From Methanoregula sp. PtaU1.Bin051 (GTDB lineage: Archaea > Halobacteriota > Methanomicrobia > Methanomicrobiales > Methanospirillaceae), in the NCBI GenBank assembly GCA_002067895.1, contig MVRE01000010.1:1-42864 (forward strand): a stretch of DNA of 42,864 nucleotides, written 5' to 3'. The notes beneath the pieces are model-generated. The model did no database searches. It was not told where the DNA came from and saw nothing but the letters and a program-made list of their open reading frames with translations. Both the position numbers and the translations under genes were made by a program. Positions 1 to 42,864 of the stretch are shown here, one piece after another. Positions within the stretch are counted from its first letter, which is position 1, and every line of letters starts with the position of its first letter.

Positions 1-93
1 GTGATCCTCTATAACCTCTCAAGAATGATCTCTACTTTGTCATTTCTGGTTCTTGTTGAGGAATTCTACAGAGCCAATTTCTTAATACTTTAA
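1..93 (+). CDS. Transposase, C-terminal end only (gene runs off the left edge)
   Basis: Thirty codons, open from base 1 and ending at TAA 91-93. The peptide reads VILYNLSR, then a variable hydrophobic stretch, then VEEFYRA. It aligns without gaps to the last 30 residues of the transposase gene at the right edge of the window (VILYNLSR...IEEFYKA), and bases 1-24 equal the reverse complement of 42565-42588. The YNL-R motif is typical of the tail of IS4/IS5-type DDE transposases, where it follows the catalytic Glu. Beyond the shared 24 bases the two copies differ clearly, so they are relatives rather than identical copies. Whether the whole gene is intact cannot be judged from here. Confidence 0.8.
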   Translation: MILYNLSRMISTLSFLVLVEEFYRANFLIL

Positions 94-615: not shown

Positions 616-700
616 TGCGAGGGAAGGGATTTGAACCCTCGAACGCCTGCGCGACTGGACCCTGAATCCAGCGCCTTTGACCTGGCTTGGCAACCCTCGC
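616..700 (-). tRNA. tRNA-Leu (anticodon CAG)
   Basis: Read on the minus strand from base 700: acceptor strand GCGAGGG, D arm, anticodon stem CUGGA/UCCAG closing the loop UUCAGGG with anticodon CAG, a long variable arm, T arm with loop UUCAAAU, acceptor strand CCCUCGC and discriminator A at 616. The 85-nt length and long variable arm fit a class II leucine tRNA reading CUG codons. CCA is not encoded and no intron is visible. Acceptor, anticodon and T stems pair fully. Confidence 0.95.
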
Positions 701-733: not shown

Positions 734-840
734 GTTAGGGATGTTTGATTCAGACAGCATTTCCATAATTTTCAACAAAGTGATTGCAAAATTTGAATCA
801 CAGATCCATTTACGATAGCTGTAATTTCTGAATTGCATGT

Positions 841-850
841 ATTTTTTATC
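841..850 (+). promoter_or_regulatory. Possible TATA element of the structured RNA locus
   Basis: ATTTTTTATC ends 18 bases before the first paired base (869) of the hairpin-rich stretch that follows. Its centre lies about 23-25 bases upstream of the expected 5' end, the normal archaeal box A distance. It is the only such element close to the structured region on the plus strand, so it argues for plus-strand transcription. Confidence 0.35.
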
Positions 851-867
851 GCATTCATATCTCCTTT

Positions 868-1097
868 ACGAGAATCCCCGCCCAGTGCGGCGCTACCGAA
901 GGCCGGTGCCTTCTCGAATCAGTCCTTTTGATGAGGGATGATACTCATCAGGCCGCGTGGCGGGCAGGTGGTTACAATCCATTACTGTAAATCTCCACCT
1001 TGATGGCTCTTATTGAGCAATCACCTTTAACAATTTCCACAGATATCGTCTTGCGGGGGATGCCCACGCGGCGGGGGGCTGCTGAAAGCAGACCCCC
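868..1097 (+). ncRNA. Candidate structured non-coding RNA, family not recognised
   Basis: No credible protein frame covers this GC-rich patch, but it folds into consecutive helices. CGAGAA 869-874 pairs with TTCTCG 911-916 around two small hairpins (CCGC 878-881/GCGG 887-890 and ACCG 895-898/CGGT 904-907). TGATGAG 929-935 pairs with CTCATCA 944-950. CCGCGTGG 953-960 pairs with CCACGCGG 1064-1071 and encloses a two-part hairpin 967-999 (GGTGG+TTACA / TGTAA+CCACC) and a hairpin 1001-1023. A final hairpin, GGGGG 1073-1077/CCCCC 1093-1097, ends the locus. I looked for RNase P, SRP and C/D-box signatures and did not find them. The strand is inferred from the TATA-like element at 841-850. Confidence 0.45.
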
Positions 1098-1170
1098 AAG
1101 AGCGTTCTAAAAATCTATAGATTGTAACGACCTGAAACAGCTGCTTGAATACTTCACATAATCTATCGTT

Positions 1171-42499: not shown

Positions 42500-42864
42500 A
42501 AAAACAAAAACATGGCTTTGTAGAATTCCTCAATGACAATCAGAACAGAAATCCCCTTCCTTAATCTTGAGAGGTTATAGAGGATCACCTTGATTTTAAT
42601 CTCCTTGACCTGGAGTCGGTATTTTCTTGCTTTCAGGGATTCCCCGAACTTTCTTTTCAAGACGGAGAACACGGTTTCGACCTTAATCCGTTGATAGTAT
42701 AGTTCCGGATCGAACAACACCCTCATTCTTCGGCGGTAATAACCGGAGATCCGTTTCCTTTCTCTCTCCCGGATCGGGATGAGCGAACAAGAGTTCAGCG
42801 TATCCCGGATCAGCCGGTGGATCTCTTCGGAGTCGTATCCGTTGTCCATGACATAGAGGTCAGA
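42496..42864 (-). CDS. IS4/IS5-type transposase, C-terminal part (runs off the right edge)
   Basis: A DDE-type transposase, open to the window end (first codons SDLYVMDNGYDS). The visible 122 codons include the middle catalytic Asp region MDNGYD and the Glu region RIKVETVFSVLKRKFGESL with the usual Tyr/Arg-rich spacer, then the conserved tail ILYNLSRL...VIEEFYKA. The family is shared with the fragment at 1-93, which points the opposite way. Its stop lies inside the last codons of pycA, so no terminal inverted repeat fits between the two genes. The N-terminal part and the IS ends are outside the window. Confidence 0.85.
   Translation of the reverse strand, partial: SDLYVMDNGYDSEEIHRLIRDTLNSCSLIPIRERERKRISGYYRRRMRVLFDPELYYQRIKVETVFSVLKRKFGESLKARKYRLQVKEIKIKVILYNLSRLRKGISVLIVIEEFYKAMFLFF

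Follow-up and report, generated by a model that had tools for sequence, protein, structure and literature searches.

Among described mobile repeats, two kinds come closest to the locus reported here: the MITEs of IS elements, mobilised by the elements of their host (reviewed in PMC10969869), and composite palindromes such as BOX of Streptococcus pneumoniae (PMC3049150). For BOX and other prokaryotic MITEs, it has been proposed that copies in transcribed regions fold within the message (PMC3049150; PMC10969869). A further group comprises REPs and related GTAG- and CGTC-tagged palindromes (PMC3733652). The kind of repeat is thus already known; a limited search of the literature on such repeats in Methanoregula found no description, and IS5-linked MITEs and BOX-like composite palindromes of Methanoregula-like archaea are apparently undescribed.

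We analysed a stretch of 42,864 nucleotides (hereafter the window), which is the whole of contig C10 of Methanoregula sp. PtaU1.Bin051, a genome of 2.31 Mb in 23 contigs. The original prediction for this stretch placed a single, unclassified, multi-branched RNA at 841-1097, next to a tRNA-Leu gene. The helices are real, yet on sequence comparison the patch is not one RNA but two adjacent repeat units with separate histories, designated here A and B. In our view the patch is very probably a mosaic in which two non-autonomous, dispersed repeats have inserted between tRNA-Leu and acs: unit B, the core of an IS5-family MITE, and unit A, a BOX-like, MITE-like palindrome.

The tRNA-Leu/acs junction and its two repeat units

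The neighbourhood of the patch is defined by three features:

616-700, minus strand: tRNA-Leu (CAG), which also adjoins acs in the genome with the empty site
1-75, plus strand: end of an IS5-family element, terminal ...TTCTACAGAGCC, with 85% identity to the end of a 1009-bp IS of genome G006
42514-42864, minus strand: piece of an IS5-family element at the opposite end of the window, with 78% identity over 351 bp to the same 1009-bp IS

The two IS5-family stretches are pieces of one IS in opposite orientations and bound the window on both sides. The original prediction was right in taking the patch for structured and lineage-specific, in a mobile, IS-bordered setting. Contigs C6, C7, C11, C12, C13, C20 and others of this genome likewise break off some 75 bases into that IS5-family element, so that this repeat interrupts the assembly. 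On the minus strand, 348-426 repeats the neighbouring tRNA-Leu in degenerate form (it aligns with a score of 32, shuffles with at most 24), possibly the trace of a duplication or of an element's integration at that gene. In G002, a genome of the same genus, tRNA-Leu adjoins acs without the stretch corresponding to window positions ~740-1167. Given the copy numbers of the units, an insertion in the window's lineage is more likely than a loss in G002, a single relative being insufficient as proof.

When the patch was used as query in a DNA search of its own genome, 14 partial matches were returned, and separate parts of the query matched separate places: query positions 1-193 led to one set and 204-281 to another, indicating two repeat units side by side. 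Units A and B also occur apart elsewhere in the genomes searched. Their parts in the window are as follows:

780-1024, plus strand: unit A in its long form, whose imperfect inverted ends are GTGATTGCAAAAT (from 780) and ATTGAGCAATCAC (to 1024); extension and ends common to copies C6:233k and C6:62k
877-964, plus strand: unit A core, outer stem CCCGCC-CA-GTGCGGC with GCCGCGT-GGCGGG and two hairpins inside (model R1 match at 863-980, 115.9 bits)
898-913, plus strand: unit A hairpin P2 (GAAGGC CGGT GCCTTC), stem kept with double changes across copies
918-942, plus strand: unit A hairpin P3 (ATCAGTC ... GGATGAT), 6 of 7 pairs changed on both sides across copies
965-982, plus strand: left arm of the inverted repeat that encloses unit B (18 bp, 16/18; none of 200 shuffles did as well)
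1035-1053, plus strand: shared 5' part of unit B (TTCCACAGATATCG...), also present in further unit B copies within the genus
1054-1105, plus strand: unit B core, or MITE core (model R2 match, 62.8 bits), the core of the TIR-bounded MITEs L340, L342, L343 and L345
1117-1134, minus strand: right arm of the same 18-bp inverted repeat (0 of 200 shuffles)

The left arm of the inverted repeat is the conserved tail of unit A; beyond the right arm, no remainder of an inverted unit A follows. Around most single copies, inverted arms were no better than in shuffled sequence.

As a whole, the patch folds better than dinucleotide shuffles, with z-scores of -3.56 on the plus strand and -3.63 on the minus strand, and such near-equal values are to be expected of palindromic DNA. 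The 8-bp stem said to close the structure, 953-960 (CCGCGTGG) with 1064-1071 (CCACGCGG), is present as an exact complement, but its first strand forms part of the 3' side of unit A's outer stem, and its second falls within unit B. In L087, the only other place where we saw unit A followed by unit B, the corresponding 8-mers (TCGTGCGG and CACAGTGG) are non-complementary, and we read the joining of the two units by this stem as a coincidence. At the TATA-like element noted near 841, the paralogous long copies have CATGTATTTTTTCGC or CATCTATCTTCCATCGC, so that it is no conserved promoter element. The patch does stand outside the known RNA families: an Rfam search at gathering and at loose thresholds returned only the neighbouring tRNA-Leu and chance matches, with no other family at gathering score.

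Unit B and an IS5-family element

Unit B has a core laid out as GGGGGATGCCCACGCGGCGGGGG-hairpin-CCCCCAAGAGCGT and was found in 24 of 150 genomes of the order; in three genomes (genus g28) the count is at least 38 apiece, 38 being the number of candidates that were scored. The same core forms the interior of elements of 154-184 bp with GGCTCTGTAGAAA-type ends in G004 and G006, both of the window's genus, and, as one copy, in the window's own genome, and longer elements of 245-462 bp bear ends of the same type. These ends are common to the MITEs L340, L342, L343 and L345 and to the IS copies L308 and L321. An 8-bp target duplication is perfect in L340, L342, L345 and both IS copies, not in L343. 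When the 8-mers on either side of 13 MITE and IS copies are compared, 92 of 104 positions agree; no shuffle gave more than 72. In G006, a 1009-bp IS carries the same ends as the unit B MITEs and is bordered by 8-bp duplications; the IS5-family model NF033579 (9.1e-64) and PF01609 (1.4e-23) both match its transposase. Since the ends and the 8-bp duplications match those of this IS, unit B is a MITE core tied to the IS5 family.

At the window's own copy, neither MITE ends nor a target duplication can be recognised, and GGCTCTGTWGAAA does not occur in contig C10; we therefore call this copy a MITE-derived core and not a complete MITE. In the viral contigs, no exact unit B core was found.

Several related elements carry further hairpins. 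In L035, L036 and L044, the loop of unit B holds the array of TGAT-loop hairpins of unit A in reverse orientation, so that small hairpins seem to move between elements. One MITE of G006 (L338:256-462) contains a 49-bp hairpin unit repeated 4.2 times, with fewer repeats in the related L335 and L336. In G053 and G058, which belong to another family of the order, unit B is present in dozens of copies (L047-L070) beside a second GC-rich hairpin, CGGGAGGGGGC...GCCCCCTCCCGG, in some cases as inverted pairs with GAGCGTCTCACCAGTA-like outer ends.

Unit A and the pairing within it

The core of unit A, a GC-rich palindrome, has the consensus CCCGCC-CA-GYGCGRC ... GYCGCGY-GGCGGG and surrounds a variable set of inner hairpins, mostly with a TGAT loop: two in the window, four in C6:62k and C6:211k, and none in a 38-bp short form. 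Its long form, with imperfect inverted GTGATTGC-type ends, is kept in three copies (the window, C6:233k and C6:62k), and the 5' extension recurs in a fourth, C6:211k. With the covariance model we found 12 copies in the window's own genome, three in a second genome of the same genus and a small number in g5, a genus of the family; overall, 6 of the 150 scanned genomes gave a match. Searching at the DNA level yielded additional copies, in G002. Most copies are intergenic, and their position relative to the neighbouring genes is not fixed. Within five same-genus genomes, no IS matched the inverted ends at two or fewer mismatches, and the flanks yielded no clear target duplication.

Some candidate matches were set aside. 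The R1 match L075 (E 4.7e-4) looks like a chance match, and an 18-base unit A pattern run against genome contigs proved too unspecific, returning mostly chance matches in GC-rich bacteria; its 31 matches in viral contigs are likewise probably due to chance. Short minus-strand ORFs in the 5' extension, lying after an SD-like GGAG, were rejected as their frame is not kept between copies.

Covariation among homologous loci proved strong within unit A, but it cannot tell RNA from DNA palindromes. When six copies are aligned with MAFFT, 95% of the cells are paired, and 2 of 500 shuffles reach the covariation score. In the model-fitted alignment of 22 distinct rows, which leans towards structure and whose shuffles ignore relatedness, 13 of 27 pairs have changed on both sides and no shuffle reaches the covariation score. 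These pairing and covariation scores indicate that the palindromes are kept. If RNA is the selected form, G-U departures from pairing should exceed A-C departures on one strand. We counted 18 G-U against 10 A-C (p = 0.18), with model fitting itself favouring G-U; as this difference is not significant, the covariation of unit A is no demonstration of selection at the RNA level. Compensatory changes are present in its helices, and they are also expected from DNA palindromes kept by repair. The pairing is compatible with RNA selection, with DNA palindrome repair and with cruciform selection.

Interpretation and comparison with known repeats

Behind the observed multicopy dispersal, the mostly intergenic sites, the empty site, the ends and target duplications shared by IS and MITEs and the conserved pairing, the mechanism would be as follows. 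The IS5-family transposase would mobilise unit B elements in trans, with duplication of 8 target bases, and the window's copy would have lost its ends, probably through decay. Unit A may spread by transposition as a similar non-autonomous element, for which no mobiliser was found in the five same-genus genomes. The pairing would stem from palindromic DNA or from read-through transcripts rather than from a dedicated RNA gene, and copies landing in transcribed regions would fold in the message. Against the mosaic stand the window's unit B, which has neither ends nor duplication, the inverted ends of unit A, for which the five genomes gave no partner IS and the flanks no clear duplication, the empty site, which comes from one relative, and the covariation of unit A, which exceeds what a typical MITE would need.

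This last point bears on another reading, namely that unit A, and perhaps the MITE hairpin arrays too, are a mobile structured RNA, with transposon-spread copies that are transcribed and whose folds are under selection at the RNA level. The double changes, the covariation scores of the fitted and of the independent MAFFT alignment and the fact that no Rfam family is needed all speak for it, and the covariation leaves it a small probability. We nevertheless judge it unlikely, given that the G-U excess is not significant, the z-scores are equal on both strands, there is no conserved promoter, the position relative to genes is inconsistent and short copies do without the inner hairpins. If true, methanogens would gain portable RNA control elements at gene ends. 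Classical REPs propagated by RAYT, a Y1 tyrosine transposase, would account for the 38-bp intergenic palindrome that is the short form of unit A, but no Y1_Tnp match (PF01797) was found in the window's genome, the assembly of which is 96% complete, whereas five control genomes were positive, and no GTAG or CGTC tag was noticed by eye; this origin is very improbable. The single lineage-specific RNA gene over 841-1097 is now scarcely credible. It would agree with a fold better than chance and with the 8-bp closing complement, yet its halves are independent multicopy repeats with separate distributions, one of them the MITE core, neither the closing helix (non-complementary in L087) nor the TATA-like element is conserved, and G002 lacks the stretch altogether.

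The mosaic reading thus removes a candidate RNA gene and puts a set of mobile-DNA repeats in its place; as the patch consists of two short hairpin repeats of many copies and not of a unique RNA gene, it is mostly ordinary, although matched base changes conserve its helices. Repeats of this type are carried about by insertion sequences in methane-producing archaea. Well folded and covarying as they are, they might lead covariance-based searches for RNAs in this order astray, and with them one could test at which level, DNA or RNA, the palindromes of archaeal MITEs are maintained.

Set beside the described systems, the short form of unit A resembles REPs and the tagged palindromes (PMC3733652) in being a short extragenic palindrome in several copies, and unit A differs from them in that no tag was noticed and no RAYT gene was found in the genome. 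With BOX of S. pneumoniae (PMC3049150), unit A shares conserved outer modules, variable inner hairpin modules, intergenic location and strong folding; it belongs to another domain of life and its mobiliser was not found, and the likeness is architectural, homology not being claimed. Unit B, like the MITEs mobilised by host IS (PMC10969869), is short, gene-free, multicopy and folded in its interior, with IS-shared ends and 8-bp duplications, and it departs from typical MITEs in its GC-rich interior, partly kept across families, and in the window's own copy, which has no ends left. The 1009-bp IS of G006, finally, has a DDE transposase that scores over the NCBIfam IS5 cut-off and is an ordinary member of the IS5 family.
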